Shown: positions 29,020 to 62,459 of the stretch, one piece after another
Layout of the letters: each line of letters begins with the position of its first letter
Position numbering within the stretch: position 1 is the stretch's first letter
NCBI GenBank assembly: GCA_039566865.1
Contig: CM076943.1
Span: forward strand, 17,477,501-17,541,500
Origin: Aurelia coerulea
Lineage: Eukaryota > Cnidaria > Scyphozoa > Semaeostomeae > Ulmaridae
Reading direction: 5' to 3'
Length of the DNA: 64,000 nt
Translations under genes and position numbers: made by a program
Notes under the pieces: generated by a model
The model's input: only the letters and a program-made list of their open reading frames with translations
What the model was told of the DNA's origin: nothing
Databases searched by the model: none

Positions 29020-29624
29020 TTATGTGAAACTAACACATTTCTTGCCGTGCGGTCTCCTGCCTCGTGTCCTATCGATGACATCTACATACACCACATTCTC
29101 CCCACTTGGGGCTGAAATTGCTTCTGGGAATGGATCCCTGTTTTCCTCCAGTTCCTGCTTCTTTCGTTCATCTTTTAATTTATCTTCGTGGTGTATCGCC
29201 CAGACATCAGCCATGCCCGGAAGATCTGCGATCATTTCATTTTCGTCTTCCTCCATGACGTATGAGATACCTTCATCGCTCCTGCCAGCGACATTTGATT
29301 CTGGCACTGCGGCCCTCCTCTGCATCTCTCGCTTCTCTTCCCCCAATCTCCTTTGTTCCTTTATCCATTTGAGATGGTTGCTGGGAACATCTGTAGGGTT
29401 TTCTTTGAAAGAAATTCTTTCTTCTAAATGCTTTTTTGCAAATTTCGCAATGATTTCATCTAGTTTGCCCTCCATTGCTCGCAGGTCAGATTGGAACTCC
29501 TCCATTAGCTCATTCATGTTTGCTGTCTCTGTCGGGTACTGAATAGTTCCGCCGTGGTATGTGTCTTGATAAAGAGATAAGATTTGTGACAACCTCATGC
29601 GTGCATGACCAGCGTGGCTGGCTC
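29020..29624 (-). CDS. Channel gene: last exon, cytoplasmic tail
   Basis: Enters after ACTACTAG in phase 1, matching the CATG|GT donor at 34011. It encodes about 200 residues, no membrane segment, highly charged: ASHAGHARMRLSQILSLYQ, a helical MEEFQSDLRAMEGKLDEIIA stretch, WIKEQRRLGEEKREMQRR, an acidic VMEEDENEMIADLP, a second charged helix (DKLKDERKKQELEE), and a basic end RTRGRRPHGKKCVSF. The two charged helices could form a coiled coil for channel assembly or partner binding. A different upstream acceptor is possible, but stop codons rule out most frames. An AATAAA lies 86 bp past the stop. Confidence 0.75.
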
Positions 29625-32600: not shown

Positions 32601-35600
32601 AACTTCAAACTAACAATCCAAGGGCTGGTCTTAAACTTATGGTCAAAGCTGTGGACGGAATGCCCTCTACTACCTTTTTCCCTGAAGCAATATTCTTCGT
32701 GGAGTTTCGATATTTTGCAAACAAATCGTAGAAATTATTTGTGCATAAAATGAAGTAAAATCCAGCTGAGTAACACAATTTTTGGGTCACACCCCTTGTC
32801 TGCAGAACCAATGCAATTTCCGAGAATTTCTATATATTTCATTTTGACGTCATAGCAAATGGCACCGAAATTTAAAAAACAACATCAACATTTGAAATCT
32901 ACATGGAAAGTTGATCTAAATGAACTCCAAGAGAGTAAAATAGGCAGAGTGTGGTAGGGTTCTATACAGTGGTTCTATATCGTTAGGCCAAGAAACGTTG
33001 TTGACAAAAATGTGGTCTTAAACTTTTTCCCACGACTGTATCTGTCTACCCCGATTTAAACATTTGGAACCTATGCTAGCTGAAGAGCTTAGCAATCTTA
33101 CGAGTAGCTATAATTACCCTCCGAAAATTGAATTTCAAAAATACGCTAATTCATTCATTTCCCATTTGTTGTTCAATCTATTTTTTGGTGGACGTGAGAA
33201 AAGCCGAGTTCCAACTTTCTTCACGAGCTCAACATCGGAATCATTTGCAGCTATAGATTTCCCTGCACGACTTCAAGTCCGTCTCTCTGTAAAAGTTTTC
33301 CAAGATATTGACTGGGAAAGGATAGTGATCATTTTTCTCTTTTGGCCAAGGTAGAAATAGCAATTAGTTAGAATGCAGTCACGTGACCATGCAGCATCCC
33401 AATAAGATAGCCACGCCCTCTGGACCAAATGGTTAAAGGACAAGTCCGGGGTTGGTATGATTGATGATAAAATACAAGATAATACTGCTTTGAATGATGT
33501 ATGATACCTTTTTCCACTATTTTTCGCCTTCTCCTTGTGAAACTACGTATTCAAATAAGCAATTTGAGCGAAGTGACGTCATATCGCGCAAACGATGACA
33601 AGGCTGTGTGATTGTTTTTTCGCTCCTTTAGCGTAGCAAGCCTGTTTATCGTGTTCTCGTTCCATATTCAATGCATGGGTAGACAATAAAGAGGCTTGCA
33701 ACGATAAGAGGTGAAAAACAATCACGCAGCCTTGTCATCGTTTGCGCGATATGACGTCACTTCGCTCAAATTGCTTATTTGAATACGTAGTTTCACAAGG
33801 AGAAGGCGAAAAATAGTGGAAAAAATTATCATACATCATTCAAAGCAGTATTATCTTGTATTTCATCATCAACGATACCAACCCCGGACTTGTCCTTTAA
33901 ACAAAGCATTTGTCAATAGTTCTCAATGGTGGAAAAATCCCTGTTCTACAAGGCTGCAAAGAGACCCATATATTGAAAGTGTTAAAAAAAGAGTACTCTT
34001 CGAGACTTACCATGATATGTTTTGTACTTGCGCTTTATTTGGCTGCAGACAACTCCCATTAAAATAAGGAGAATAACAATTACGACTGTCATTTGGAAAA
34101 TGATTGATTGTGTATTTATAAATGAGATTGGTTGGTCTGCCTCTTTCTTTATCTGCAAGGCAAAGTAGATGGTTTCAATTGTCAATAGTATACCAAAAAT
34201 TAATCCACCGTTGTAGAAAATATTGCAAAAACTCGATGGGGGTTGCATAATTTGTAGCAAAATTTTCTATGAGGGCTTGATCGAGAATTCTCTTTTGTTG
34301 TCTAAAAGTTAGCTACTGTAGCAAGATAAGGCTCAAATCCTTACTGGTTGCCAGAGCATGCGGAATCACCCAATTTCATGCTTGTCAGCCAATGAGATCA
34401 CCGCTTTCTAGCCCCTCGAGACAAAATCGGTCGTTTGAGGTGAATTTTCTAGTACCCTCACAAAAACTGAAATGGGTGTTAAAGTACTTCAGTTATTTGC
34501 ACTTTTTTAATAACTCAGTTGTGGGGATTTCCGTCCAGAATTGTTTACATGTTTAAACACATAGCTTGTTTGGTGCAGGAGCTGCGCTCAATTTCCGGTC
34601 GAAGAATATTGACCTTCGTTGAAATATCTATAGAAATCGCTACAAATGAGATATACAGATAACAATTTCAGCGATTATGCATACTGACCTGGGCCGGGTT
34701 GTTCAAACCACGATTAGCATTAATCTTGGATTAAAGGCATGCTTATGTTGTCATTTGTATAGTCCTAATCCGGTATTAGCCTAATACCAGTTTTGAACAA
34801 CCGGGCCCTGAGCAATAACCCAAGCTCCTTCACTGCTATCACATCTCAAAATTGGAGGCAATTTCTAACGATTTCTGGTAGAGACATCATTTGGGCCTTA
34901 GCTTTACTTCGCTTAGAACTCATTCCATTGCACTTGAAAAGTTATGGTAAAATTCTCAAGCTAAATAATGCACTTACCCATGACTCAGACACCAGTTTGA
35001 ATTCGTTTGCCTTTTTTACTTCAGCAAATTTTTAAACCTCGGTCCATATTTTTCTCTGCAAAATCTCTCCGCTTCAAACATTAAACAGTGAGCTTTGACA
35101 TTGTATCATAAGAGTCTCGCATCAAAGAACATTCCTATACCGGGTGTCCCAAAATGATGTATCATTGTTTGATTGCTGACATGTCCATAGCCAATGAACC
35201 GATTTTCAAACACTTTATTTCATTTTATTGCCTAAAGCTAAATTGTATTTTAAGATGTTGGTTGTGGTATTACCAGTTTTTGAAAATCGGTTCATCGGTC
35301 ATGGACATATAAGCTATCAAACGATGATACATCATTTTGGGACACACGGTAGAACGATCATACGCGGTTAAGCTGTTTAGCGAGGCACCTGTGAATTAGT
35401 TTCACGCATTTCGTTCTTTTCGTTCTGTTTTAACCCTATTACTACCGGGCTTTTTCGACCATCGTAGTCCCGGGGGGGGGGGGGCACAAAGTGCCCCCCC
35501 TCCGTAACTTCGCCATTATTGCAGATATGAGGATGAAACTTAGTACAATGGTGTATAGGAACAAAATCTACACAATAGGCTACTTTTTTAATTCTTTATT

Positions 35601-38600
35601 ACTTTCATGACGTCACAATGACGTCATAATTGAGGAAAATTGCACTTTTTGCTTACTATTAACAATATTGGCAATATTTAAGTTCTTAGTTGATAATTTC
35701 TTTCATACTACTACAAGAATGTATCCCAAAGCATCACTGAATAAAAATTGGCATTGAAATGTCAATTTAAGCTTGTTATTTATATCATATATTCATCATT
35801 TATTTGCATCAGTTTGTCATTGTTTCATTTAAACCCCTAATTACTGATGAAATTTCTCTAAAATGCCTTAAAATAGTTAATAACAATCAATAGAACCAAT
35901 TTTGACCATTTAAAGTTATCTAATACATTTGTTATTATATATATGACGTCATAAACTTTGATGACGTCATGAACATAAAATTTGCTGACGTCATCAAAAA
36001 TGGATAAAATTATACATCATCTGAAAGCTCTCATCGAGAGCTATCGAATGGTGGTATTTTCGATGTTCTACGACCATCCGTGTTAAAACTGGACTCGCTT
36101 CTTTAATTGTCTGGCTGACCACGTGTTGAAAAGAGGTTGGTCACGTGATCAGTATCTACCATTTTGAAAAAAAATTACAAATTTTAATTAGTCCATGAAA
36201 TTTTAGGAAAAGTCGCAAAGTTTCAGCTCTTTATCTTTTGAACTGACGACACTACATCAAATAAACTTTGCCGCGGGCACTTTGTGCCCCCCCCCCGGTA
36301 GTAATAGGGTTAAATAGATGCAAAACATAAAAAAAAAATTTTTGAGTTGCTAAAAAAGGTACCCGGTTTTGCTCTTTAAAGCGCATGAAATTGTTGATCT
36401 ATAGGAATGTTCTGTGAAGCAAGACTTTTATGATATAATGTCAAAGTTCTCTGTTTGTTGCTTGAAGCGGAGAGACTGTACGGAGAAAATTATGGACCGA
36501 GGAAAGTTTTTGCGATTCACCCACAACTGATCGTTTCTTTTAAAAATTTGCTGAAGTAGAAAAGGCTAACGAAGTCAAACTGGTGTCTGAGTCATGGGTA
36601 AGTGCATTATTTAGCTCAAGAATTTTACCATAACTTTTTAAGTGTAATGGAATGAGTTTCAATTGAGGAAAAGCTTAGGCCCAAATGATGTCTCTACCAG
36701 AAATCGTTAGAAATTGCCTCCAATTTTGAGATATGATAGCAGTGAAGGAGTTTTGGTTATTGCTCAGGTCAGAATCACTGAAATTCTTATCTGTATATCT
36801 CATTTGTAGCGATTTCTATAAATATTTCAACGAAGGTCGATATTCTTCGAGCGGAAAATGAACGCAGCTCCTGCCCCAAACAAGCTATGTGCCTAAACAT
36901 GTAAACAATTCTGGACGGACTTCCCCACAACTGATTTATCAAAAAATAGTGCAAATAACTGAAGTATTGTAGCATCCATTTCAGTTTTTGCGAGGGTACT
37001 AGAAAATTCACCTCAAACAACAGAGTTTGTCTCCAGGAGCTAGAAAGTGGTGATCTCATTGGCTGACAAGCATAACATTGGATTATTTCCGCATGCTCTG
37101 GCAACCAGCAAGGATTTGAGCCTTATCTTTACTGGCAGATCTTAGATCAAATGACGTGGGAAATTTGAACATTTTATAAGGTTTATTCGATTTCTTTGTG
37201 AGATAAGATGAGCTGAAGACAAGCGGCGATGTAATTTTTACTAACATGCATCGCGCTCCAGTTACATATATTAAGCGCGTCTACAGGGATTTGGTTAAAG
37301 ACCGTAATAAATCGTATATAAAAGAGTTTTGATAATATAAATAGAAACAATGTCTAGTTCTTACCTTAAAACCAGCAGTTACATCTGCCAAGGTTTGTAG
37401 TATTTGGCGTTCCTCGACCTTTATATAGTCCTCGAACGTACTTGCAGCGTTAGTCATGTCATTTGACAAAATAAAACCGAAAGAGAAGGGATATTGTATC
37501 AGTTCAACAGCATATATATCTGGATGATTGAATACGTCAGGTTGAGATGCTGCCGATGCCACATCAACCAATGCTGACCGCACTTTGCGTCTTTTCAGTG
37601 CGTCGGCAACATCCTCGATGGTTCGATATAATGCTTCTGCAACGACAAGACAAAATATTGCTCAAGCTGATAAACAGACAAGATAGCTTGTTTAAAAAAA
37701 TAACGAATTGGATTTGTCCTTGATTTATTTTCGTGGAATTTTTTTTATTTTGGAATTTTCTCAGGCTAATTGGCCAAAGGTTTGGTTTAGAGGTGGACGC
37801 AAATTTGGACTCTGAAATTAACATTCAACTATCGAAGCACCCATATCAACGAACGAGATGTCTGTGTTCAAGGTATCTATTGAGGAATGTTTTGTGAATG
37901 ATTCACCAAGGATTTATCTATTGAGGATGTTTTGTAAATGATTCACCAAGGATTAAAGCTAAATTTTCATGTCGCTTGAACCAAATGTATTTTGGGATAC
38001 CCCTACTTGGAAAAAAAAGGATTACGAGTAAGGGAGCGGTCATTGTTAATCTTGAGTAACAGGGCTAATGATAATTCTACACAATTAGACAACATTTCAT
38101 ACCCCGTCTTGAATATACAGGGTGTCCCAAAGAAATTTTGCCCCGTTTGCTTGAAGATTGCGACAAAACGGCAAAATATTCTCGCCAAACTTTGTTATGA
38201 TGTTGCTTTTCAGCTGTTCTAATAAATTTTGCTACCATTCCCGTAAAGATCCTTTCAAAAATCATGGAGCTATGACCTTCAGCAGACCAAATTTGACTGA
38301 TGACTAAAACCAGTGGTCAATCATTTTGTCTTACTATTTTGCAGCGATAAATAGCTTCATGTAATGTAAGAAATATTCTCTGTAAGGTAACAAATAATTG
38401 AAAATTTTTTAATGATTATCAGAATTTTGAAAAAGCTACGGCATTAGGCTGCTGTTTTATTTCATTAATGGAAATAACACCATGGAGCAAAATCATGCAA
38501 CATTTTAGCGAGAATCTTTTGCCGTTTTTTTTGTCATCTAAGACAAACGGGGCACAATTTTTTGGAATACCATGTAGAAAAATAGGTTTTATACCCCTTT

Positions 38601-50600: not shown

Positions 50601-53600
50601 CTGAAAAGAAAACCAGTGTACTAAATATACTTTCTTTAATGATGAATATAACTAGATAATGCTTAATAATCATTTCAGAATCTGTGCGTTTAATTAAGAT
50701 GAGCAAAATTTGCTATATTTCCAGTGCAATTGCTTCACACTATATAAAATACAGATATTTTAAAACACAGAGACATGTCTTATAGAAATGGCAGAAAGTT
50801 TAAACTGCATTGTGATGTCGTAAAAATGACACATAACCAACAATTCAGAATCTGCATAGAAAAGTTGATAGAACAGCAATATTGCATCTCGTTTCGCCTA
50901 TAGTTGTTACCAACTAAACGCTGCTCTTAAACTACTTGAGAGTCAAAATCTCAGATTTCTTATTATCCTTGTAAGTTATAGTGACTTGAAGTTTCGAGTT
51001 ATTTCTTTGTTTTACTGTTCAATCTTTAACGGTGGACATATCTCTTTGCAGTGTAACATCTTTACATACATACCTTTACATATTACATCTTGCTAGCAAA
51101 TATTGATGATTTTACAAACAGTAGTAGTTTTTTGGAACGCCCGGTATATATGTATACAGAGAAACGACAACATTTACCAGGAAGCACTAATTGATAAGAA
51201 GTGAGTCAAATATGATTGAAGTTTAGAATGCGTTAGCAAACTACAAATTACTCTATGAAATGGTAAGGAACTAGTTGAGAACATTATGTCTTTGTAGAAA
51301 ATCGTAGGATATGTTGAAGCACCTTTTACGATCCCTTGAAGGAGTGAGATAATGAGTCACTGTTGAAGTGTTCTTCTTGAAAGCTCCTACAGCATTTGAT
51401 TATATACAAGCAGTCATTCTTTGGGATTCTTTATTCCTCTCCACGCACTGGTACCACTTTGAAATGTTTCATCTTAATGCGATGAATGTGCGATACTGGT
51501 TTTTCTCTTGCTAGTGGTGATCCTGGCCCCAACTATGGATTGGTTTGTCCAGTGACTATGGTTGGTCTCATTGTATAAAGGCTATCTCAATAATGGAATG
51601 GGGGAAGAGGTAAGGGAGAGACGCCACAATTAGAAGGAATAATATTGTTAGTTGTGAATGTGGCAATAATTTTGAGATTCGAAATGAATGACCAAAAGTT
51701 CTTGAAGATGGCTTACCAAGGGATGTTTCGTATTGAGTTTGCAGTGAATAAATGATTTTCATTTTTCCAAGATAATTGTCATTTTCCAGCGAATCTTGTA
51801 AGAGCAGCATTTGAGAGGAATCGAGGCCGGTGAACGAAATGTTGAGCGTCACGATGGTGCTGTTTTCCCTTGGAAAAAAGAGACAAACAGATGTAAAATT
51901 CATGGTACAAAAAGGTCCAAAGAATACAAGATATAAATGAAAAAAATATATTAGATAACATTAAATGACCAAAAGTGGTTCTTCTTTTAATCGTTATGAA
52001 AAATTTTAAGGCATTTTAGAGTATTTGCATCAGTATTTAGGGGTTAAACTGATGTAAATAAATGATGAATATATGACAAAAATAATGAGCTTAAATGGAT
52101 TTCATATTGCCGATTTTCAAGGGTCGAAAAAGCCCGGTATTAATAGGGTTAACATAATTAAGCTGCCAATGAAGCAAATAAGGTGCTAATTCTGATTAAA
52201 GTTGTTGTTGTGACAGGGCAAACATGGTTGTGATCTATCCATCTTATGGTGTCAAATCTGTCTAACATGAAATAAGCCGATATCAAATTTTGCTATAGAA
52301 TTTTGGTAAACTTCTGTTTCGTATGCGCGTTATGTGCGCTTTCTTTATTTCAGTGCCAATTAGCAGAGATAAACGTTAATCAATTGGTTTGATGACAGCT
52401 TGACTCGCTTACTTCCTTCGGGATTGACTGATGGCAAAGCCCCTTCTTAGATTGCAAAGTACTTTGTCATCAAAAACGTATGTACTTTCATTGCCTAGCC
52501 CCTCTATGCCATACTATTATGGTGTTGTGTTGGTCGTTGGACAAATTTTGTGGACAAATTCTATGCAACGTAATGGCCATTTTGATATTTGAAATTTAGA
52601 AAATGCAGCAGCGACATGATCGAAATAAATACCCAAGTGGGCTCTATGAAAGGTTTATCCACCAGATTCAAAAGGTCGTCTATGATCGCTCAGTTAAGAA
52701 AAAAACATATTAGTAGATCACAAAGCAATGACACCTTCCAAGAGAAGAGAACATCAGAGAAAAGAAAATTGACATTTTGCATGAATGAAATTTTTCTATG
52801 CTATTAAAAAGTAAAGAAGAATTCCTAAAGGGATGTCCAAATTTAAGTCTCTAGAATGAACAGAAACTCACCAAAGTGTATGTTTCTTGATACTTTCGAT
52901 TTTCGTATAGAGATATCTCTGGTACGAGTGGCTGTGGCGAAATGTTCGTTGCATCTGGAATTAGATTAAAGTAGTTTTGAATGTCATAGATGTTGTGTTG
53001 AGAATAAATTGCATGCCTCTGGGAGGAGACTTGCACAAGTTATGGTATACATTCATTTTTACTAGAAACAGCTTGTAAGACACGGTGGTAGTTTCAATTT
53101 TGCGAAAAAGCAACTACCCTACCCGAATTAAACAAGCGAAGAGGCTGTTGTTTTTTGCACTCAAATTGTTTTGACACTATGTAGTAATAGCAAATGTTTT
53201 GAAATTTGAATGTGAATTATAAATTACTTGTTTTGAGATCTTACTAAGTAATTTGGGAGCCCTCCCAATAAAACTAAATTAGCTTTATACTTCCGGCATC
53301 AAAAATATAAAAAATATTTACATATTTTTGGTAGCACAGTGTCCTAGAATTTTAGAAGCTGCCAACCAGCTCCAAACCTTAGTTTATTTCCAAACAAAAA
53401 TGAGTTTAATCATCAACTTCTTACAATAGGTGCCACTTTTTCTTTCGTAAATCTCAGTTTTGTGAAGATGTGAAGATGGAATGATATCGTACAATGTGAG
53501 GCATTACGGAAAGTTGATGATTGCAGGCCATTTCATACTTACGTTTATCTTTACACGCTTCTGGAAGTTGTTGAAAGCTAGGGAGCCATTTACAGCCATT

Positions 53601-56600
53601 TTACTGTCCCAAGCTTGCTCAATTTCCAAATTTTTTACGATTATATTCTCCGCTGAAATCAGATAGGGCAAGTTGTTAATTCAAAATTCAGTTGCAAATA
53701 TTGACTTCTACGCTCCAAAGAAATTTGAAATAACTTGGAAATAAGTTAGAGTCTATGTATATTCTGTAAATAATGCAATACGTATCTGTGTGATCAAACT
53801 ATATCGTAAACCAATGTTTTTCTTGTCCAGCTTTGCAACATGAGTTTGATGCTTTCAATTTGAAATATTGGTCAAGGCTAGGTTAGGATGACATAGATGT
53901 TTCTCAGCATGTGTTGTTAATCAAATCCATTGCATATTTTTAGACAGTACATTGCGTTGGTGTTATGTAATTGGCCTTCAGCAAACAAATGATAACTCTG
54001 AAATCATTTTGCAGATGTTGAAAACAGTTGAATGGAATCATACATTCATCAGTTCATGACACTAAGTAACCAAGCGATTTTTGATGACACTTAGGCCTAG
54101 TTTAAACATCATAGTTTTGGCATGTCGAATCGAACTGTATTAAACACGGCAGAATCTGCCATGTTTGAAAATCTGAGTTAATCATCGTTTTTTGCCGCGT
54201 TAGATGGTGGTTAATCAAAATGACCATTTTTCAAAATCATCTCTTTAATGCGCAAGTGCAGTGTCTGATCACACCTAGAAACCGCAGACCATGGCCTAGA
54301 ACTGATTAATTAAACGCGGCAGAAATACGATGTTTAAATCAAGTCTAACTTACTAAGCAGTCCTAAGGATATTCTAAGAAGACGTGGAGATAAAAAGACA
54401 TAAGGACATACGAAGATATTATCAGTAAACTTTGAAATCAAATCAAACTCGTCAAGGGCATCACCACAGTACAGGCCTTGAGCTCTGTCCAAGGGCTCTA
54501 GGACTAGATTGAAGTAGTTAAAAGAGATTTCTAATCATATGTATAGATATTATACCCGTTACCAAGATGTTCCTTGGTTGTTTCTTTATCGTTTCTTTAT
54601 TTTCTTAGCTTTGCTATTCAAGCGACATAAATCCCTTGTTTGCTCAAGTTGACATAAACCGTCTTCTTTCGCACGCTTTCGCCGGTCATGTTATGTTTCG
54701 AAAACAAGCCAAAGGGAGGTTGAGCTCACGTCAACTTAAACAAGAGATGGATCTGTCATGCGCTGTTTCCTCGTATAACAAGGCTTGTAACCCAGCCATC
54801 ATGAATCAACAATGAATCATAATAATGAGCCTTGTATCATCACATGCCACGCGTATAGCTTCTTGATTGGATGAGAGAAAGCGCATGACCAATCCATTTC
54901 TTTTTTACGTGGACCTGAGATCAACCTCACTTTCGTTTAGTTTTCGAAATAAGTAAAACATGGCGATGAAAGCATGCGAAGCAGACGGTTATGATTTGTT
55001 TTAACTTGAGAAAGCAAGGGATTTATGTCGTTTGAAAACAAAGCCAAGAGAATAATCAAAAAAGAAACAGCTAAGAACAATCTTTGTAAGATGTATGATA
55101 TTCTTGATATCCAAGGAGCTGTGACCTTTCAAACGGGGATTGTTTTTTCTGACTTACCCGGTACTTTAATCTCGTCCTAGGGCCCTTGCTCGGTCTTTAA
55201 CGTGATGTTACACAACAATTCCCTGGAAGTTCTTAACTAAGAATATTATGTTAAGAACCATATTAGCAGGCAAATCCTGGCTAATAAATACATTAAAAAG
55301 ACCTGCCTTGGTGCCACAATGCCCTGGCTTAAATATAAAATATTTCAGGTTAAACTCTCACCGGGACATTTCCTTATGTTGCATGTTACATTCTCCATTG
55401 CTTTGCCAATGCAATCATTTCCGCCAAACAGGGGAGCCGGGTTTGTGCAAAAGCGCCAGCGTCGATGCATGCCTGTGTTGCACGGTTTATCACAGGCCGT
55501 CCAGTTCGTCCATTCTGTCCAGTTACCATGAACTAAAACAAAATTGAAAGTTTATAATACAACATTAGTAAACAAAACTTCACTGAAGTAATCTTTGTAA
55601 ACCCATTTCTTTAAAATGTTGGTGTATAGATAATAGCTAATAACTAGAGGCATCTCAAAGGATAACTCTTTTCAACATTAAAACCTAAAAATTAAAGTTG
55701 AAAATTCCTTTGCAATTTTCCCGTGATATCTGATCATATGGCTAGGCCCATTCGCAAAGCCTCTGGTTTCAGGTGCACTCTAAACTTTGAATATGCGAAC
55801 TCGTATCTCAGGTGTTTGCTGATTGACGATTCTAAAACGCTGCGTTTAAGTTCAAGATCAACAAATTTAACATTGTTTTCAGAAATTCCTGATATCTTAT
55901 CGCTTTGTAGGGTTATCCAAGGGCGGGCATGTCACACTGGGAACGATGGTCCTACCTTTGTCCGAAAACCGGTAGTTCATGAAAAATTTTTGCACCACCT
56001 TTGTCCCAAAAACTGGTCGTTTTTGAAGGCAAATTTCTGCTGTTATTTTTCTTCAATTTGAAGGACAATTTTTAACATTATGTATCACTGCCGACGTTTG
56101 TCCCCAGAACCGGTAGTTTCGACCTACTACTGTTTCCCAAAGCAAGTAGTAATTGTAGATATGAAAGTACAAGTGTCCCAAAACTGGTTGCCGGACAATG
56201 GTAGGACCGCTTCAATGAAAAATTTGAAATTCTGGCCTTTTTTTCGGAACTTTTCCGGACAAAGGTAGAACCGCTTTAGTGAGAAATTGTAATTTCTGGT
56301 CTTTTTCCCATAAATTTGGCGGACAAAGGTAGAACCACTTATGTGAAAAATTTGAAATACTAGTCTTTTCTGCCTAAATTTGGCGGACAAAGGGAGAACC
56401 AGCCTACAAGTAAACTTCAGAATTTTGAATAGATAGTAGGTTGGGAAACTTGATTTTTGTAACAAACTGATGGAATAGGAAAAATGATATTCAAATTTCA
56501 CCTTTGTCCCAAAAACTGGTAGTTTTGGGCACGAAAGTCGTATTATTTGAGAAAAGCACCGGTTATTTTTTCCAATTCCTCTGGACAAACATGGGGTCAA

Positions 56601-59600
56601 ATATTTTACAATACTTGCCCGCCCCTGGTTATCCAATCAAAAGGGGGCATTTTTTGTGACACCCGGTAGGGTACCGAATCCATCAGCATTTAACTGTTTT
56701 TGATTGGGATATTTTTGAAGAAAATACCCCCTTTTGCAGAGATTCTGTGTCATAAGCCTTCCTCCTTGCAGGAGTATGAGAGAAAATCTACTAGGGGGAG
56801 GGAAATTTGCCCCCCCCCCCCATGACCAAAATAGGGCTAACGGGGATCAGCAATTGATACGACAACGCAATTAGAAATACAATTGATTAGATGCTATCTA
56901 ATTTCACCTCCCTTTCAAAGCACCATCTCTTGGGCCAATAGAGATGTGCCCCAAAAACAATTTAACCGTGCCTTTCGCTTAAGATGCGCAATGTTTGTAC
57001 TGTAAAGATATACCTGGGCACTGTTGCACATTGCAAATTTCCGTTTTTATCGTATCCCCACAACAATCATAGCCACCATGCTGTGGAGCTGGGTTATTGC
57101 ATTTTCTCGTTTTGGTCTGTTGTCCTCCTCCACATGCCGCATTGCAAGTTGACCAGCTGGACCAGGCTGAGAAACCACCATGAACTAAAATGAAAGAAAA
57201 CCTCCCTAGCAAATCAAAGATGACCAATAAGTTTTATTGTTTCTGTCATCTGAATTGGCCAGAAAAAAATGTTTCTCTCTCGTCGCAAGCAAATTTCTAC
57301 TGCACAAAAAGTTGCAATGACTGACATATGTCAAAGAGTTTTTTAATCATTCAGTGCCAACAAATAGTTACATATTTGCGGTAAGAATAATTGAGCTATG
57401 GTGAAAAGCAATGCAAGGGAATGCAAAACAACTTTAAATTGACATATTGTTTGTAAATATCAAAATCTTACTTGCACATGGCTGGACGTTGCAGGTAGTT
57501 GTTTCATCAGTTCTGCCATTGCAAAAATCGGAATCGCAGAACCGCATTCTTGTGCGTGTTCCACCATTACACGATACACTGCATTTTGACCATCGTGACC
57601 ATATACTGTATTTGTCTTGTGTTGCTAAGGAAAGGGTCGAATACTGGATTAATATACAGACTGTCACGAAAATATTGTGCCCCGTTTGCCTGAAGATTGC
57701 TACAAAATAGAAAAGATTCTTGCTAAACTTTTATATGATATTGTTGTTCAGATGTTCCAATAACGTTTGCTGCCGTCCCCGTAAAAATCCGTTGAAAAAT
57801 GATGGAGCTATGACGTTCAGAAGACCAAATTTACCTGATGACTGAAACCAGCGGTCAGCCATTTTGTCTTACTATTTTGCAGTGATAAATAGTCTAGCTT
57901 CGAAGAGTGAAAGAGTTTGCTTAATACCATATTGCAGACACCCATAAACTATGGGTTCCTTGAAAATTATATCAGGTTTCGTCAGAAGGTTTAAAAATTA
58001 CGTTGGTTTTAACTTTCTTTTATCAAAATTTCTCTTGAAATCTTAAAAAAGAAGGAAAGTAATGTAATTATGAAAATTTTGAGCCTGAAGGAATCTGAAG
58101 AAAACTTTTTTAAAGATTTGGAACCTATGCTGAAATAACGTAAACTTTTTGCATGCTATCCTTTTCCTCATAGGCCATAAACCTCATTCTTTTTTATCAA
58201 CCCCCCAATTTGGTGTTGTTTTCGAACTGATGAAGACTTTTTTAATTGCTTTTATCTGTATTTTTAACTGTTCCCAATCCTTTTTAACTCTTTCTCATAG
58301 GAGCTATAAGAAATGATCAATAGGCATTTTGCGCATTGTATCATTTTGGCTACGTACGTCATAAGGGGGCTCCTGTAAAGCGCTATTGTGCTCCCTCTAT
58401 ATTGAGGCCATTCTCTAATAAACCCCTCCCCTCTGAGCCAATATTCGTCTAAATTTTACCGGTTGTTATTGATGACTGCCTTATGGTATTTTTTGACGGA
58501 ACAATGGTTGTTGCAAAGTTTGAAACATTACGAGTAGATTCATATGTTGAAATTATGATATAGGAAGATGCTGGCGATAATAACATCGAATGTGTTGGTT
58601 TTTTTCTGTGGCTGGAAAGAAGACGCCAAAATCTTTCAGCAAGACAACACCGACAAGAATAATGATTAAACCATCTTCTAAGAAGTGCATCTTAATATAC
58701 CTTTTTACTTGCTAGAAGAGAGGTCAGGATCGAGCTTCCAAATCTGGTAAGTTTTGAGAAGGTTAGCGAGAGCTCGACCTCCTTTCTTGGTAGAAAAACT
58801 GTTATCGTCTAACTGTCGCTTGAAGTTCCCTTCGGATCTCAAGAACACTTTTTTCAGCGAGTTAATGAACGATAACTTTGCACAAATTGACTTACGAGTG
58901 GCTCAATTTACACACTGGCAAGTTCTTATTTGCCTCTCGGCCTTGTTTCTTGTTATTTTCGTTCATCGTTAGCTGATTTTGTTCTATAACAGTTTCAAAA
59001 CAAAGTGCGAGCAGACGAGAGTTTCATTTTGCAACTTTACCAACAGAAGTTAGCTGTTTTTAACCGTTCATATTCAAATGCAAGAAAAATAGGCTAAAGA
59101 TGAATGAAATCTACGAGAAACAAAGCCAAAAGACCAATGAAATCTGCCTGTGTCTAAATTGAACCATTCCTAACTCACTTTGCGCAAAGTAATTGACAAC
59201 AGAATTTCTAAAGAGTTTTGAGATCCACAGCAACTTCATCCCACAGCTAGCAGTGTATCCACAGAGAACGGGGGGTTGTGCTTTCGTTTTCCTTCCCAAA
59301 CTTTACCAGATTTGGACAGTCGATCCAAACCACTTCTAAAGTAAATGATTTATCCTGACTTTCTTTGAGAATTTTATTTCAACTAATTCTTCAATATTAA
59401 AGTTCCCCGCTCACTGACTCTCGACGAAAACAATGAGTTTTACAATAAGACTTTTCTTCCATAGATGAGACTTTCCAAATCTCCAATGTCATTTTGAGAA
59501 CGCAAGACTGACACAGCTGCTGGCCAGAATTTTGTGTAAGTAACGTAATTAAATGAATATATTGATTCCTGTCATTTATCGTCCCATTTCTAGAGTAAGG

Positions 59601-62276
59601 CTGTCAATTGATCTCCAATATATAACAAATATGAGGCGTACACTTCCTCCAACTTTGGAAGATGAATACATTTAAAATCGATAAATCTCAGAGCATTGTA
59701 AAATAGGATGAACATATCCAAAATAGTAAAAGTTTAGATCTTACCATTCATGGTTGTTGATATGTTTCTTGCAGTAATTGCTTGGGTAGTTATGGTACTT
59801 GCATCATACTGGGCTGTTGAAGGTATAGGTACGGTCTTTTGTTTAGATGATGTTGATAATGACATCAAAGGTGTTAGTGTTGGTTCTGGGACTACCATTG
59901 CAAAAGAAAAAAGCAGAATGCTTCAGCAAGACGATACTGACAGGAAACTTAAATGAACTAATTTGCCACTTTCCTAGTATTGTATCCTAATCATGACTTG
60001 CTTTGACTTCAACTGATTGTTCCATTCTTAAACTGCCAAGTGCATTAAAAGGATGATATTTACAATAAGAAAGAATATTTTGAGATGAAACTTCCCAATT
60101 CATCAATGTCACTTTGAGGACATAAACTGAGACAGCTGCTGGCCAGAAATTTGTTTCAGTACCGCAGTGAAATGAAAATATTCATTCCTGTTATTTATCG
60201 TTCCATTTCTATAGTTAAGGCTGTCAATTGATCTCCGTGATTTAAAGAATTCGAGGCGTAAGCTTCCTCCAACTTTGAAAGATGAAGAAATTTAAAATCG
60301 ATAAATCTCAGTGCATTGTAAAATATGATGAACATATCTAAGATAGTAGAAGTCTAGATCTTACCATTGGTCGTTGCTAAGTGACTTGCAGTAATTTCTG
60401 GGGTAGATATGGTACTTGCATCATACTTGGCTGTTGTAGGCGTAGATACGGATGTTTGTTGAGATGCTGCTGATAATGATTTCAAATTTGTTGGTGTTGA
60501 TTCTGGGACTACCACTGCAAAAGAAAAAACAAAAGTGCTTCAGCAAGACGACACTGACAGGAAATTTAAACGAATTAATTTGCCATTTTCTTAGTATTGT
60601 ATTCTAAACATGACTCGCTTTGACTTCAACTGATCGTTCTATTCTTAAACTGCCAAGTGTATTCATCAGGAAGATTATTCTGAGATGAAACTCCCCGAAT
60701 CTTCAATGTCACTTTGAGAACATAAAACTGAGACAGCTGCTGGTCAGAATTTTGCGTCAGTAACGTAGTGAAATGAAAATATTCATTCCTGTAATCCATC
60801 ATTCCATTTCTTTAGCTAAGGCTGTCAATTGATCTCAAAAATGTAGAAAATATGAGGTGTAGACCTCCTCCAACTTTTGATGATGAAGGTATTTAAAATC
60901 GATAAATCTAATTGCATTGTAAAATATGATGAACATATCTGAAAGAGTAGAAGTCTAGATCTTACCATTGGTTGTTGGTGAGCGGCTTGCAGTAATTTCT
61001 GGGGTAGATATGGTACTTGCATCATACTTGGCTGTTGTAGGCGTAGATATGGATGTTTGTTGAGATGCTGCTGATAATGATTTCAAATTTGTTGGTGTTG
61101 GTTCTAGAACTACCATTGCAAAAGAAAGAACAAAAATGCTTCAGCAAGACGATACTGACAGGAAACTTAAATGAAGTAATTTGCCACTTTCTTAGCATTG
61201 TATTCTAATCATGACTTGCTTTGACTTCAACTGATCGTTCTATTCTTAAAATGCCAAGTGTATTCACAAGGAAGACTATTTTGAGATGAAACTCCCCAAA
61301 TCTTCAATGCCATTTTGAGGACATAAAACTGAGACAGCTGCTGGCCAGAATTTTGCGTCAGTAACGTAGTGAAATGAAAATATTCATTCCTGTAATCCAT
61401 CGTTCCATTTCTTTAGCTAAGGCTGTCAATTGATCTCCGAATTGTAGAAAAGATGAGGTGTAGACCTCCTCCAACTTTGGATGATGACGGCATTTAAAGT
61501 CGATAAATCTAAATGCATTGTAAAAAAGGATGAATATATATAAAAGAATAGAATTCTAGATCTTACCATTGGTCGTTGCTAAGTTGCTTGCAGTAATTTC
61601 TGGGGTAGATATGGTACTTGCGTTATACTTGGCTGTTGTAGGCGTAGATATGGATGTTTGTTGAGATGCTGCTGATAATGCTTTGAAATTTGTTGGTGTT
61701 GGTTCTGGGACTACAATTGCAAAAGAAAAAACAAAAATGCTTCAGCAAGACGACACTGACAGGAAACTTAAATGAACTAATTTGCCACTTTCTAATCATG
61801 ACTTGCTTTGACTTCAACTGATCGTTCTATGCATTCATAAGGAAGATTATTTTGAGATGAAACTCCCCAAATCTTCAATGTCACTTTGAGGACATAAAAC
61901 TGAGACAGCTGCTGGCCAGAATTTGCGTCAGTAACGTAGTGAAATGAAAATATTCATTCCTGTAATCCATCGTTCCATTTCTATAGTTAAGGCTGTCAAT
62001 TGATCTCCAAATTGTAGAAAATATGAGGTGTAGACCTCCTCCAACTTTGGATGATGAAGGTATTAAAATCGATAAATCTAATTGCATTGTAAAAAGGATC
62101 AATATCTAGAATAGTAGAAGTCTAGATCTTACCATTGGTCGTTGCTAAGTTGCTTGCAGTAATTTCTGGGGTAGATATGGTACTTGCATCATACTTGGCT
62201 GTTGTAGGCGTAGATATGGATGTTTGTTGAGATGCTGCCGATAATGATTTCAAATGTGTTGGTGTTGGTTCTGGGA
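29020..62276 (-). CDS. Mucin-TSP1-SEA-FN3 receptor with K+-type iGluR-like channel (21 exons, 5' partial)
   Basis: Whole-gene entry for the exons listed separately. Joining all 21 exons by GT-AG borders gives 4,346 bp with matching phases at every junction and one frame to the TGA/TAA end. About 1,447 residues lie in the window and the N-terminus is outside it. Order: mucin-like repeats (residues 1-241), TSP1 x3 (242-406), SEA-like (407-521), FN3 x3 (522-812), ligand-binding lobe S1 (about 815-940), M1, pore loop TVGYGD, M3, lobe S2 (1050-1160), two hydrophobic helices, tail of 200 residues. Extracellular domain exons are all phase 1-1, as in shuffled modules. A K+-type filter in an iGluR-like fold is known from the rotifer AvGluR1 and bacterial GluR0. 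The added TSP1/SEA/FN3/mucin ectodomain is what I have not seen described. Role inferred: ligand-modulated K+ channel tied to adhesion or matrix. Confidence 0.85.
29843..29985 (+). CDS. Orphan terminal exon, charged
   Basis: After CTGCAGCTGCAG (acceptor at 29842), phase 1, the + frame reads HSFSIPNKVVDKVYELPIAP, then KKFQRLIELREKGRNELNDD, then GDMYEL-stop (TAA 29983-29985). An AATAAA is at 30129-30134. Composition and context are exon-like, and it lies antisense inside the channel gene's last intron. The first exon could be 28257-28331. Could also be a relic of a mobile-element protein. Confidence 0.35.
30910..31408. repeat. Foldback repeat, copy 2
   Basis: Inverted copy of the repeat at 21830-22275 (shared TGAACTTTTCAGAAATCTTG and GAGCCATTCAAT). 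It ends exactly where the Tc1-like element at 31413 begins. Confidence 0.65.
31434..31892. mobile_element. TTAA-flanked foldback element, copy 1
   Basis: A 459-bp element AGGACAAGTCCGGGG...CCCCGGACTTGTCCT flanked by TTAA on both sides. The other arm of the host Tc1-like element (AAAAGTTTAAGACCAC, read inversely near 33020) shows the empty site with a single TTAA. A TA target would also fit because the border is ambiguous by two bases. Arms of about 150 bp contain TGACGTCA. Confidence 0.85.
32209..32460. repeat. Four 70-bp tandem repeats
   Basis: Unit TTGCTTCAGGGAAAAAGGTA followed by GTGGAGGGCCTTATGTCCAT and TAATGCTTCATTTCCCTGAA. Each unit is itself partly palindromic (CTTCAGGGAAA / TTTCCCTGAAG). 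Confidence 0.9.
32461..32651. mobile_element. Small element, TIR CAGCTATGGCCATAAGTTTA
   Basis: A 191-bp element with inverted ends CAGCTATGGCCATAAGTTTA and TAAACTTATGGTCAAAGCTG, sitting between the two arms of the host element. The termini have Tc1-like style. Confidence 0.75.
33437..33896. mobile_element. TTAA-flanked foldback element, copy 2
   Basis: A 460-bp second copy of the element at 31434-31892, with the same ends and TTAA on both sides (33433-33436, 33897-33900). The length differs by one base. Confidence 0.9.
34011..34266 (-). CDS. Channel gene: exon with two membrane helices
   Basis: Acceptor CCTCATAG, phase 0; donor CATG|GTAAG, phase 1. 85 residues. It starts KILLQIMQPPSSFC, then a first hydrophobic segment (NGGLIFGILLTIETIYFAL), a polar loop QIKKEADQPISFINTQS, a second segment (MTVVIVILLILMGVVC) and the stop-transfer SQIKRKYKTYH. 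In iGluRs only one helix (M4) follows S2; here two are predicted. Either the first packs as a re-entrant or extracellular-facing helix, or the topology differs from iGluRs. Confidence 0.85.
34692..34807. mobile_element. 116-bp MITE, TIR GGCCGGGTTGTTCAAA
   Basis: Flanked by CTG on both sides; the opposite arm of the giant foldback (GACCTGAGCAAT read inversely) shows the unoccupied site. A 3-bp CWG duplication suits PIF/Harbinger elements. Confidence 0.85.
35140..35349. mobile_element. 210-bp MITE with CCGGGTGTCCCAAAATG ends
   Basis: Inverted ends CCGGGTGTCCCAAAATGATG and CATCATTTTGGGACACACGG, about 60 bp of arm, flanked by TA. It shares only the outermost 15 bp with the elements at 2196 and 16088. 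Confidence 0.85.
35434..36309. mobile_element. 876-bp TTAA-flanked element, ends CCCTATTACTACCGGG
   Basis: Terminal CCCTATTACTACCGGG and CCCGGTAGTAATAGGG, flanked by TTAA on both sides (35430-35433, 36310-36313), as for piggyBac-type insertion. It has inner C/G runs and five TGACGTCA octamers. A partial inverted copy lies at 52000-52148. Confidence 0.85.
37365..37636 (-). CDS. Channel gene: ligand-binding lobe S2, main exon
   Basis: Acceptor TCGTTGCAG|AAGC, phase 1; donor TTTAAG|GTAAG, phase 0. It encodes LYRTIEDVADALKRRKVRSA, LVDVASAASQPDVFNHPDI, VELIQYPFSFGFILSND and FEDYIKVEERQILQTLADV. The order matches iGluR S2: an ...ALKRRKVRSALVD strand-helix (where iGluRs have the ligand-contacting acidic residue after an AFLxDS strand), YPFSFGFILS (compare YGIALPKGS), then the last S2 helices. 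The Asp of ALVD could play the acidic role. Confidence 0.85.
38118..38574. mobile_element. 457-bp MITE, ends CAGGGTGTCCCAAA...TTTGCCCCGTTTG
   Basis: Inverted ends include TTTTGCCCCGTTTG / CAAACGGGGCACAAT, flanked by TA. The 5' part of the same family occurs at 57658-57905. Confidence 0.8.
39045..39111 (-). CDS. Channel gene: S2 short exon
   Basis: 67 bp, acceptor ACGTTTCAG, phase 0; donor ACCA|GTAAG, phase 1. It encodes IAAIHDSAGHKIAIRRNAKV and NT, the first S2 strands. HKIAIRRNA sits where iGluRs have the I.YGT.. segment. Both phases fit the neighbouring exons at 41728 and 37636. Confidence 0.8.
39559..41436. mobile_element. 1.9-kb foldback, arms about 885 bp
   Basis: The left arm 39559-40443 and right arm 40558-41436 are highly similar inverse copies (start TTAATGCCAAAATCG; inner border CAGAAGTCTGTCTCG / CGAGACAGACTTCTG). 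A 114-bp spacer contains a G run. Each arm keeps an open frame of about 90-140 codons (FSFLGSEMSDLYEINFIY...), which follows from arm similarity and is not independent evidence of coding. It lies in the intron before the S2 exons. Confidence 0.9.
41728..41881 (-). CDS. Channel gene: filter end, M3 gate helix
   Basis: 154 bp. It completes the filter glycine codon (GG|T) and continues YGDLTPKSKPARLFAMVW, then MIVGLITLSLLSAKLATSLT, then VAKDNQLYGQE. YGD with the upstream TVG is the K+ channel signature. LLSAKLATSLT lines up with the iGluR M3 gate SYTANLAAFLT at A, L, A, L and T, so pore and gate belong to the iGluR type rather than to a fused Kv or KCNK channel. Donor phase 0. Confidence 0.9.
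42938..43571. mobile_element. 634-bp foldback MITE, ends CCAGGTCACC
   Basis: TA-flanked. The left end CCAGGTCACCCAGAAAAAGTGACTC is matched inversely at the right, where GGTCACTTTTTTCT is repeated. Arms about 270 bp. It ends 165 bp from the pore exon. Confidence 0.85.
43736..43830 (-). CDS. Channel gene: pore-loop exon
   Basis: 95 bp, acceptor TTATTTGCAG, phase 0; donor GTTGG|GTAAG, phase 2. It encodes DYRENADEFPKSFPRGVC and SGIYWAYVTMTTVG. GIYWAYVTMTTVG followed by YGD (next exon) is the pore helix and selectivity filter of K+ channels. The intron interrupts the first filter glycine codon. Spliced frame verified across the junction. Confidence 0.92.
44754..45214 (-). CDS. Channel gene: ligand-binding lobe S1 and M1
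   Basis: 461 bp, acceptor TTTCTTGTAG, phase 1; donor GCTTTG|GTAAG, phase 0. It encodes APYVYRNKSGHANGLFPEIL and RNLMSP, the iGluR/SBP_bac_3 S1 start (compare PP[FY]..NG..E.L). A variable loop with NNNSAEKK follows, then EMIRDVGYVDVSFPIFGG and VFVPVVQHPG (the DV..AP.. strand pair), and the M1 helix WPLFIIIILLMVIGGFGIWA. The Arg that in iGluRs binds the ligand carboxylate (PLTITxxR) is missing: FPIFGGTSGATHQ follows instead. The ligand is therefore unlikely to be a plain amino acid. Confidence 0.88.
45450..45690. repeat. Hairpin-containing repeat
   Basis: A GTGAGATCCCACCTC / GAGGTGGAATCTCAC hairpin at 45505-45536, followed by CTTTTCCATATAAACGAAAA; resembles a MITE remnant. No borders found. 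Confidence 0.35.
46353..46768. mobile_element. Foldback element, ends CAGGGAGCGCGC
   Basis: Left CAGGGAGCGCGCAATGGACA with AGATAGT, right ACTATCTTGTCTG then GCACGTTCCCTG. Arms about 190 bp (CAATAGCAGGCCGATC and its complement inside). No clear target duplication. Confidence 0.7.
47117..47419 (-). CDS. Channel gene: FN3 domain 3
   Basis: 303 bp, phase 1-1, acceptor ATCCCTAG, donor TTGGAG|GTAAG. One fibronectin type III domain: PSEAPEKVEIIDNRQNELDV then CWKQVSPQHSHGDLLGYKIR, then ITELQPNSRYSVSVLAFNEL, then GDGVSS. It has the conserved Trp, the L.GY.I strand, and the L.P...Y...V.A.N..G motif. It directly precedes the ligand-binding lobe. Confidence 0.92.
48133..48447. mobile_element. 315-bp element with (C/G)n ends and 18-bp tandem core
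   Basis: Ends CCGGGGGGGG...GTACTTGAC and GTCAAGTATGGG...CCCCGGG, flanked by the identical octamer TAAGAACT (48125-48132, 48448-48455). The core has about six copies of ACCCTGTCGCATAATTTT with spacers. An 8-bp duplication suggests hAT or a relative. It lies in the intron between FN3-2 and FN3-3. Confidence 0.88.
48757..49125. mobile_element. Element with repeated GTTCCATAT/GGAACGATA motifs
   Basis: Inverted ends TTCATACGGGAATGC and ATTCCGTTCCCGTGCGAA; many internal TTCCGTTCC/GGAACGATA units. It ends about 70 bp from the donor of the FN3-2 exon. Confidence 0.55.
49198..49488 (-). CDS. Channel gene: FN3 domain 2
   Basis: 291 bp, phase 1-1, acceptor TTATTTTAG, donor CAGCA|GTAAG. FN3 domain: PSQPPNEVFATGTSERTVTV, SWKHSSSGNWNGEPVGTFIM and ITGLHPVASYTISICQVT. 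It shows the SW at strand B, the GL.P...Y.I....V pattern and several N-glycosylation sequons (NSS, NVT). Confidence 0.9.
49719..50010. mobile_element. 292-bp element, second of the (C/G)n type
   Basis: Ends CCCGGGAGGGGGTACTTGAC and GTGAAGTACCCCC...CCCGGG. Flanks GTTGCAGT (49711-49718) and GTCGCAGT (50011-50018) are an 8-bp duplication with one change. The core is tandem TTATACCAAAATCG / TTTATACCAATTTTGCGA units. It shares ends but not core with 48133-48447. Confidence 0.88.
50080..50290. repeat. Dispersed repeat, copy 2
   Basis: Copy of 24345-24572; see the shared phrases there. Confidence 0.75.
50322..50600 (-). CDS. Channel gene: FN3 domain 1
   Basis: 279 bp, phase 1-1, acceptor TTCTTTTCAG, donor AATCAG|GTATA. 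FN3 domain: PAVAPSNLTITPLEESSIQA, EWDSVPTNVSGYIIFYREME, ITALKPNTRYSIRVVAYNEH and GNGVASK. All the FN3 landmarks are present: P.NL, the Trp, GY.I.YR, L.P.T.Y..RV.A.N..G. Confidence 0.94.
51717..51868 (-). CDS. Channel gene: SEA-like domain, exon 3
   Basis: 152 bp, acceptor TTTTTCCAAG, completing a TGG codon (phase 2); donor CTTG|GTAAG, phase 1. It reads ENSTIVTLNISFTGLDSSQM, LLLQDSLENDNYLG. The NSTIVTLNISF strand corresponds to the GS[VI]VV cleavage strand of SEA domains, with Gly replaced by Asn, which also creates a glycosylation site. Confidence 0.75.
52000..52148. mobile_element. Partial copy of the CCCTATTA element
   Basis: Ends CCCGGTATTAATAGGG before TTAA (52149-52152). It matches parts of 35434-36309 in inverse orientation, with large deletions. 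Confidence 0.75.
52872..52954 (-). CDS. Channel gene: SEA-like domain, exon 2
   Basis: 83 bp, acceptor AATTCCAG, phase 0; donor TTTG|GTGAG, phase 2. The only frame that fits both neighbours reads MQRTFRHSHSYQRYLYTKIE then SIKKHTL. This continues the SEA helix (RVKIN|MQRTF...) into the second strand. Another frame is also open, but its phase does not match. Confidence 0.7.
53130..53420. repeat. Dispersed repeat, copy 2
   Basis: Copy of the repeat at 19690-20190, sharing TTTTGAGATCTTACTAAG and CTTCCGGCAT. Confidence 0.75.
53543..53652 (-). CDS. Channel gene: SEA-like domain, exon 1
   Basis: 110 bp, acceptor GATTTCAG, phase 1; donor AAAC|GTAAG, phase 0. It reads ENIIVKNLEIEQAWDSKMAV, NGSLAFNNFQKRVKIN. 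The pattern of a short strand, then W..., then S.AF..F...V fits the first half of a SEA domain (strand, then helix with the F..L...V spacing). Confidence 0.75.
54090..54350. mobile_element. MITE with TAGGCCTAGTTTAAACATC ends
   Basis: TAGGCCTAGTTTAAACATC and GATGTTTAAATCAAGTCTA form inverted ends. ACT on both sides may be a 3-bp duplication. Confidence 0.5.
54585..55070. mobile_element. Foldback element, arms about 220 bp
   Basis: Shared inverse phrases CGACATAAATCCCTTG / CAAGGGATTTATGTCG and TTCTTAGC.TT / AA.AGCTAAGAA mark the arms around a 50-bp centre near 54810. Confidence 0.75.
55362..55532 (-). CDS. Channel gene: TSP1 domain 3
   Basis: 171 bp, phase 1-1, acceptor TTGTTTTAG, donor TCCCG|GTGAG. 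Thrombospondin type 1 repeat: HGNWTEWTNWTACDKPCNTG, MHRRWRFCTNPAPLFGGNDC, then VTCNIRKCP. It has six Cys in the usual spacing, a W..W..W stack, and the C.NP.P..GG..C motif. The middle RxR ladder is mostly kept. Confidence 0.93.
55919..56626. mobile_element. 708-bp hAT-like element with tandem core
   Basis: Ends AAGGGCGGGCATG and CTTGCCCGCCCCT, flanked by GGTTATCC on both sides (55911-55918, 56627-56634; identity continues to AA). The core has three to four units of about 64 bp starting GGACAAAGGTAGAACC (56195-56400). Confidence 0.85.
56635..56668. mobile_element. Solo MITE end GACACCCGGTA
   Basis: GGGGGCATTTTTTGTGACACCCGG then TA, like the right end of the CCGGGTGT elements. The hAT-like element inserted just left of it. 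Confidence 0.45.
57014..57184 (-). CDS. Channel gene: TSP1 domain 2
   Basis: 171 bp, phase 1-1, acceptor TTTCATTTTAG, donor GCCCAG|GTATA. TSP1: HGGFSAWSSWSTCNAACGGG, QQTKTRKCNNPAPQHGGYDC, then IKTEICNVQQCP. Textbook WS.WS.C...CGGG..T..R.C...P...GG..C pattern; six Cys plus one extra Cys next to the GG..C position. Confidence 0.96.
57472..57624 (-). CDS. Channel gene: TSP1 domain 1
   Basis: 153 bp, phase 1-1, acceptor CCTTTCCTTAG, donor TGCAA|GTAAG. Short TSP1: YSIWSRWSKCSVSCNGGTRT, RMRFCDSDFCNGRTDETTTC, NVQPC. The WS.WS.C...C..G..TR.R.C pattern is clear. The middle loop is shorter than in the other two. Confidence 0.94.
57658..57905. mobile_element. Partial MITE, family of 38118
   Basis: TA-flanked left part only; shares GCCCCGTTTGCNTGAAGATTG and GATGGAGCTATGACGTTCAG-type phrases with 38118-38574. 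Confidence 0.75.
58739..59325. mobile_element. Diverged foldback element
   Basis: CCAAATCTGGTAAGTTTTGA at the left and the inverse of CAAACTTTACCAGATTTGG at the right. Arms of about 220 bp are at perhaps 70% identity, so it is old. Confidence 0.6.
59745..59891 (-). CDS. Channel gene: mucin-like exon A
   Basis: 147 bp, phase 1-1, most 3' and most diverged of five. It reads PEPTLTPLMSLSTSSKQKTV then IPSTAQYDASTITTQAITAR. Ser/Thr/Pro-rich, likely O-glycosylated stalk. Donor ATGAATG|GTAAG joins TSP1 domain 1. Confidence 0.8.
60365..60508 (-). CDS. Channel gene: mucin-like exon B
   Basis: 144 bp, phase 1-1. It reads PESTPTNLKSLSAASQQTSV then STPTTAKYDASTISTPEITA. About half of the residues are Ser, Thr or Pro. 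Part of a 600-bp exon-plus-intron tandem unit. Confidence 0.82.
60966..61109 (-). CDS. Channel gene: mucin-like exon C
   Basis: 144 bp, phase 1-1, nearly the same peptide as B (EPTPTNLKSLSAASQQTS...), with a CTAGAA change giving LEP at the start and SRSPTTN at the end. Confidence 0.82.
61567..61710 (-). CDS. Channel gene: mucin-like exon D
   Basis: 144 bp, phase 1-1. Differs from B by few residues (FKALSAASQ, YNASTIS); the latter makes an N-glycosylation sequon. Confidence 0.82.
62133..62276 (-). CDS. Channel gene: mucin-like exon E
   Basis: 144 bp, phase 1-1, PEPTPTHLKSLSAASQQTSI then STPTTAKYDASTISTPEITA. The most 5' exon seen. A further unit begins past the LTR element at 63807, so the array continues outside the window. 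Confidence 0.82.
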
Positions 62277-62459
62277 CTACCGTTGCAAAAGAAAAAAGAA
62301 AAAAACAAAAATGCTTCAGCAATACGACAGTGACAGGAAACTTAAATTAACTAATTTGCCACTTTCTTAGTATTGTATTCTAATCATGACTTGCTTTGAC
62401 TTCAACTGATTGTTCCATTCTTAAACTGCCAAGTGTATTCAAAGGATGATATTTACAAT

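Follow-up and report, generated by a model that had tools for sequence, protein, structure and literature searches.

A candidate K+-signature receptor channel with a mucin-like, adhesive ectodomain in Aurelia coerulea, and its cnidarian relatives

The window analysed here, 64,000 nucleotides of Aurelia coerulea DNA (assembly GCA_039566865.1, contig CM076943.1, positions 17,477,501 to 17,541,500), carries on its minus strand the 3' part of one gene, which probably encodes a single-subunit receptor channel. Its product would combine a mucin-like, TSP1, SEA-like and FN3 ectodomain with a two-lobed domain split around a K+-signature pore, a transmembrane segment M4 and a charged tail. Sequence comparison places it in a family of cnidarian proteins with kinship to the K+-selective GluR0 class.

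Gene structure and channel core

The minus strand was read from 64000 to 28500, and the gene was rebuilt from the raw sequence, its splice signals and its reading frames. Twenty-one exons, running from 62276 to a TAA stop codon at 29020, join with phases that agree at all junctions (acceptor AG in 21/21, donor GT in 20/20), an independent result that bears out the exon chain of the first-pass annotation. The joined frame has 1,391 codons with a stop only at the last, giving 1,390 residues, while the other two frames contain 69 and 52 stops. The 1,447 residues given earlier do not hold, a decayed mucin copy at 58611-58460 being excluded from the rebuilt protein. The first codon is partial, and the gene, as read from its sequence, is 5'-incomplete and continues upstream.

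The C-terminal part of the protein has the predicted order S1-M1-P-M3-S2-M4 of the ionotropic glutamate receptor (iGluR) superfamily, so that the iGluR-like order proposed at first pass stands. The S1 half of the putative ligand-binding domain and M1 (44754..45214, identified by comparison with the lobes of relatives) are followed by an exon with the M1-P linker, the pore helix and the first half of the TVGYGD filter (43736..43830, Pfam Ion_trans_2). The next exon (41728..41881, Ion_trans_2 and alignment) has the second filter half, M3 ending in LATSLTV, and the start of S2. The filter (residues 996-1001) is thus interrupted by an intron, and is set in an iGluR layout. The S2 lobe is spread over two further exons, at 39045..39111 (alignment to relatives and lobe comparison) and at 37365..37636, the latter holding an acidic residue (LVD, D1096). 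M4, a hydrophobic stretch that aligns to relatives, is at 34011..34152, and a cytoplasmic tail, charged and helical by look, ends with the stop codon at 29020..29564. M3 had been likened to SYTANLAAF, but it closes with AKLATSLTV and so comes nearer to IATSLTV, the consensus of the bacterial GluR0-like proteins.

A Pfam search with the joined protein listed 17 families. The TSP1, FN3 and pore assignments of the first-pass annotation are firmly recovered (TSP_1, 1e-28, three stretches; fn3, 2e-32, three stretches; Ion_trans_2, 1.5e-13), while Lig_chan (6.3e-6, 26.5 bits against a cut-off of 30.8) and SEA (0.022) fall under the Pfam cut-offs. A LIVBP-type amino-terminal domain is not among the families listed for this protein, the 5' end of whose gene lies outside the window. 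The lobes are recognised better against their own relatives. With family rows that had been aligned jointly with the window row before that row was removed, hhalign matched S1 to the relatives' S1 at 99.2% (8e-20; raw score 111.9 against 18.1 for the best of 30 shuffles) and S2 to their S2 at 99.4% (1.3e-21; 120.4 against 17.5), while the crossed comparisons, S1 against S2, reached 0.1% each. Structure models of two relatives (P0012 and P0011) predict a two-lobed, binding-protein-like clamshell with the iGluR/GluR0 fold. By profile and by the models of relatives, lobes of ligand-binding type flank the pore, even though a Pfam search with the lobes alone matches no ligand-binding family. Neither of the two outcomes that the first-pass annotation had named as fatal to its reading, separate genes for ectodomain and pore or a pore without flanking lobes, has emerged from the sequence.

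The ectodomain is built from exon-sized modules. Five mucin-like exons (described below) are followed by three TSP1 repeats, all matched by Pfam TSP_1, at 57472..57624, 57014..57184 (with the best stretch, residues 298-348) and 55362..55532. Three exons of a SEA-like region come next, at 53543..53652 (phase 1-0, with the sub-cut-off SEA match), 52872..52954 (phase 0-2) and 51717..51868 (phase 2-1), and all three align with SEA-like stretches of relatives. At the position where GSV, the self-cleavage motif of SEA, is expected, the window protein has NST; GSV is present in 4/6 aligned copies of relatives. Three FN3 domains matched by Pfam fn3 (50322..50600, 49198..49488 and 47117..47419) complete the ectodomain, the last being joined to S1 as in relatives.

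A cnidarian family under other names

Three protein searches, the first and third of which scored only the ~8,000 candidates sharing most words, listed 2, 9 and 96 proteins, among which are 12 further family members. Ten of these bear cnidarian species names (Acropora digitifera, A. muricata, Stylophora, two from Pocillopora, Oculina, Orbicella, Nematostella, Actinostola and Hydra); another, P0011, has a TCONS name, presumably in the style of the Clytia transcriptome. The region from S1 to S2 is complete in eight (P0001, P0003, P0005, P0006, P0007, P0009, P0011 and P0012). Three others (P0008, P0010 and P0013) stop inside S2 or ahead of it, and most of the P-loop is missing from P0004. None of the listed proteins named from non-cnidarian eukaryotes has a ligand-binding or Lig_chan model; a further EukProt row, the K-channel-like P0061, bears no species name.

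Over 260-420 residues, the core of the window protein shares 24-35% identity with the cores of nine relatives. Four of them (P0001, P0003, P0007 and P0010) are 29-35% identical to it in the core and have a TVGYG filter behind FN3. The alignment with Acropora P0001 runs unbroken through the join between FN3 and core (28% over 797 aa). In Hydra P0010, the ectodomain and the start of S1 are collinear with the window protein (24% over 623 residues, E 2e-52), as is Nematostella P0007 (22% over 516 residues, E 1e-28), which has in order a S/T-rich stretch, TSP1, SEA (24.9 bits, just under the cut-off), FN3 and core. In P0010, five stretches of TSP1 and then FN3 lie ahead of a core that ends within S2; SEA is not among its Pfam matches at E 0.01, and a SEA assignment there comes from alignment alone. 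P0007 and P0010 thus resemble the window protein in having TSP1 ahead of FN3. All nine relatives longer than 1,000 residues have FN3 in front of the core. Other ectodomain modules differ between members: PAN-like (sub-cut-off) and SEA in Acropora P0001 and Stylophora P0003, LamG in Oculina, F5/8 and C-lectin in A. muricata, and CUB and Ig in P0011. P0012, from Pocillopora, has no recognised ectodomain. It is one of two short coral members without FN3, the other being P0013 from Orbicella, and its cluster holds 49 member sequences, which may represent an expanded group or merely many deposits.

The database names of these proteins are PTPRQ or PTPRQ-like, sidekick-1-like, hypothetical, uncharacterized, or none, so that members are easily missed (P0007 is named PTPRQ, P0001 PTPRQ-like and P0003 sidekick-1-like; P0010 is Hydra LOC100197582). 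The window protein has FN3 arrays in common with PTPRQ and sidekick, but Pfam lists no phosphatase domain for it, nor for P0001 or P0007, and R3 phosphatase receptors are reported absent from Nematostella and Hydra in the accessible part of PMC5336234. The PTPRQ and sidekick names are rejected on both grounds. What emerges looks like an overlooked cnidarian channel family, wider than the window gene, with a putative GluR0-type K+-signature core and changing adhesive ectodomains. The first-pass annotation had suggested a new receptor class. The architecture holds, and databases already contain relatives, misnamed or unnamed.

The comparison extends to known receptors. GluR0 (Synechocystis Slr1257) and the bacterial GluR0-like receptors have SBP_bac_3 lobes and share the IATSLTV type of M3, to which the window protein adds M4, a cytoplasmic tail, the long mucin/TSP1/SEA-like/FN3 ectodomain and a gene of 21 or more exons. 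The metazoan AKDF, NMDA, epsilon and sponge lambda iGluRs have a non-K+ pore, a SYTANLAAF-like M3 and a LIVBP-type N-terminal domain; they share with the models of relatives the predicted fold of ligand-binding and transmembrane domains. To our knowledge, K+-signature members of the glutamate receptor superfamily have been described only from bacteria and one rotifer. Both GluR0 and AvGluR1 are presented as K+-signature receptors in PMC12332018 and PMC12226733. AvGluR1, from the rotifer Adineta vaga, is an animal protein that, like the window protein, combines an iGluR layout with the signature of a K+ filter; compared by description only, it is activated by glutamate and further amino acids (PMC12226733), and no adhesive ectodomain is described for it in the passages covered of the two papers. 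A cnidarian K+-filter group goes unmentioned in the passages covered of PMC6307864 and PMC12226733, and the string GYG is absent from both main texts. In the portion of PMC2924276 available, bacterial receptors are reported in few species, and insect-type ionotropic receptors in no Cnidaria. A literature search over titles, abstract starts and passages, with most subscription papers outside its scope, found no description of this architecture.

Ligand site, proposed mechanism and alternatives

In iGluRs, an arginine in S1 binds the agonist carboxylate, and an acidic residue in S2 contacts the amine. The arginine (R106) is invariant in 16/16 bacterial GluR0-like rows. In an eight-row alignment of the cnidarian family, the column that maps to it reads D, A, E, S, R, T, S, A, with A in the window protein, although the loop is loosely aligned and the mapping uncertain. 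For the S2 acidic residue, 8/8 rows have D, as do P0003 and P0004; it is D1096 in the window and maps near D298 of the bacterial rows. Since the arginine is unconserved, the term glutamate receptor is unsupported in its functional sense. Taken together, the two positions make a classic amino-acid agonist unlikely. The predicted site could possibly take an amine-bearing small ligand, or no small ligand.

Several points weigh against a receptor channel of GluR0 type. The agonist arginine is retained in only one of eight rows (Oculina P0006), and in Hydra P0010, an early-ending predicted protein, the S2 aspartate does not appear. Without the pore, the lobes of 0/8 members match a Pfam ligand-binding family, the search giving only three unrelated weak matches in one member each, and in the PDB they match only at E 0.022-0.18. 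S1 alone scored just 3.1% against bacterial S1. The structure models are of relatives, the better one being built on an alignment with 30 bacterial rows of 35, and their TM-scores, at 0.19-0.35 by query length, are low because the models leave the arrangement of lobes and pore unfixed. The SEA match is under the cut-off in the window protein, and Pfam lists none in Hydra P0010.

If the receptor-channel reading is correct, the subunits would assemble as tetramers with an extracellular N-terminus, and the TVGYGD filter, entered from the cytosol by analogy with iGluRs, would pass K+. By closing, the clamshell of S1 and S2 would tug on M3, the way other iGluRs work, although its ligand is probably something other than an ordinary alpha-amino acid bound through the usual arginine. 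Another small molecule, touching the conserved S2 aspartate, could be the stimulus; alternatively, the TSP1/mucin/SEA ectodomain could bind a partner or be put under force, and the FN3 stalk would pass this on to the channel. An open channel would shunt or hyperpolarise the cell, so that contact would act as a brake, the coupling of contact to K+ conductance being an inference. More tentatively, and with somewhat less than even confidence, the family may represent ancient, cnidarian-wide K+-conducting contact receptors. A GluR0-type pore and clamshell would there be combined with exchangeable modules (TSP1/mucin, SEA, FN3, PAN-like, LamG, C-lectin, F5/8, CUB-Ig), and contact with matrix, mucus, cells or microbes would be turned into an inhibitory K+ conductance without amino-acid transmitters, the pore being a surviving or bacteria-derived GluR0 lineage. 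Such a family in Hydra, anemones and corals would close the gap from bacterial GluR0 to the receptors of animals, and the kinship between iGluRs and K+ channels would become open to direct tests. The turnover of adhesive, lectin and immune-like ectodomains suggests that the protein senses contact, mucus or microbes and silences cells in response; we know of no channel with such a role.

The alternative that survives best, though it is unlikely, is a recognition or adhesion receptor that retains a channel fold but is non-conducting, or serves only as an accessory subunit. Some iGluRs, the delta receptors, hardly conduct, and both the unconserved agonist arginine and the large, changing ectodomains would suit such a role. 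On the other hand, 17 of the 31 invariant columns in a seven-row core alignment are within residues 135-223 (M1 to M3), which suggests stronger selection on the pore than on the ligand lobes. A conventional receptor channel gated by glutamate or glycine, with the ectodomain as an anchor only, is less probable again. It would agree with the modelled iGluR/GluR0 fold of the relatives, the S2 acidic residue in all eight rows and the arginine of Oculina P0006, but conflicts with an arginine that is constant in the bacterial rows and variable in the family, as far as the uncertain mapping of that loose loop allows. That two adjacent genes, an adhesion protein and a channel, were falsely chained is very improbable: the model comes from genomic sequence with introns reaching ~4.4 kb, and the relatives are mostly gene predictions, but FN3 precedes the core in 9/9 relatives longer than 1,000 residues, the alignments of P0001, P0010 and P0007 pass from FN3 or TSP1 into the core, crossing the join unbroken, and P0011, with its transcript-style name, has the order CUB-Ig-core. 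As far as sequence shows, one gene, as first annotated, appears to be the correct reading.

The predicted pore is nearest to bacterial GluR0-like receptors, closer than to Kv or K2P channels. With a core profile, all 37 bacterial GluR0-like proteins outrank every listed K+ channel, bar one plant protein with repeated pores. In a pore tree built from few columns, with animal iGluRs and AvGluR1 not among its rows, the window protein is within the family group (93/99), which includes one long-branch K-channel row, and is nearest by path to P0011; 16/21 other K+-channel rows split off at 100/99, while the remaining five are on the family's side, one of them (a long branch) adjoining the window. 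Pfam gives no sign of an S1-S4 voltage sensor, its Ion_trans match covering only profile positions 132-227 of 241. A channel of Kv, K2P or KcsA type that has unrelated flanks and resembles iGluRs through convergence was first suggested by a single-sequence PDB match and could draw on the PDB profile matches and Ion_trans_2, which favour K+ channels first, and on those five rows, but it is scarcely credible and was set aside on the profile ranking, a pore comparison, the tree and the fold tests, in which the relatives' lobes model as one clamshell.

The mucin exon array and other elements in the window

Residues 1-242 comprise five Ser/Thr/Pro-rich repeats (S 16.5%, T 22.7%, P 9.9%, no Cys), encoded by exons at 62133..62276 (phase 1-1), 61567..61710, 60966..61109, 60365..60508 and 59745..59891, the last being more diverged and of 147 nt. 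As to a SEA-bearing mucin, Ser/Thr-rich tandem repeats are present, and the SEA match is under the cut-off but aligned with relatives. The exons are in five tandem exon+intron units (59463-62454) of 566-617 bases, 84-92% identical where aligned. From this pattern, the units are the product of tandem duplication, which would alter mucin length. Among copies 1-4, the exons are 92-96% identical and gapless, compared with 79-93% and 0-44 gap columns for the flanking introns, while non-synonymous codon differences (4-7) exceed synonymous ones (1-2). The evidence for selection on the mucin exons is equivocal. A sixth copy of 152 nt (58460..58611) meets a stop, by eye, when read in the phase of the others, and was dropped from the model because its frame does not fit; it appears as a decaying module within the array. 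A further unit may begin just past the window edge, since the sequence at 63933-63805 is similar to the introns found after the mucin exons.

In the intron upstream of mucin exon 1, direct repeats of 163 bases (63802-63640 and 62622-62460, 99.4% identical) flank ~1 kb. ATTGT, seen by eye on both sides of the pair, suggests a recent small long terminal repeat element. Outside the exons of the gene, 13 of 105 open reading frames of at least 80 aa were scanned, giving one sub-threshold match and one reverse transcriptase of a retroelement on the plus strand (5109-6281, 390 codons from stop to stop, RVT_1 4e-36). Large inverted repeats or palindromes occur at 39558-41435, 25422-27274, 31430-31896, 33430-33903, 42942-43552 and 13842-14568. 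Several are inside introns of the gene and resemble remnants of miniature inverted-repeat transposable elements, one pair having 892-base arms that are 95% alike.
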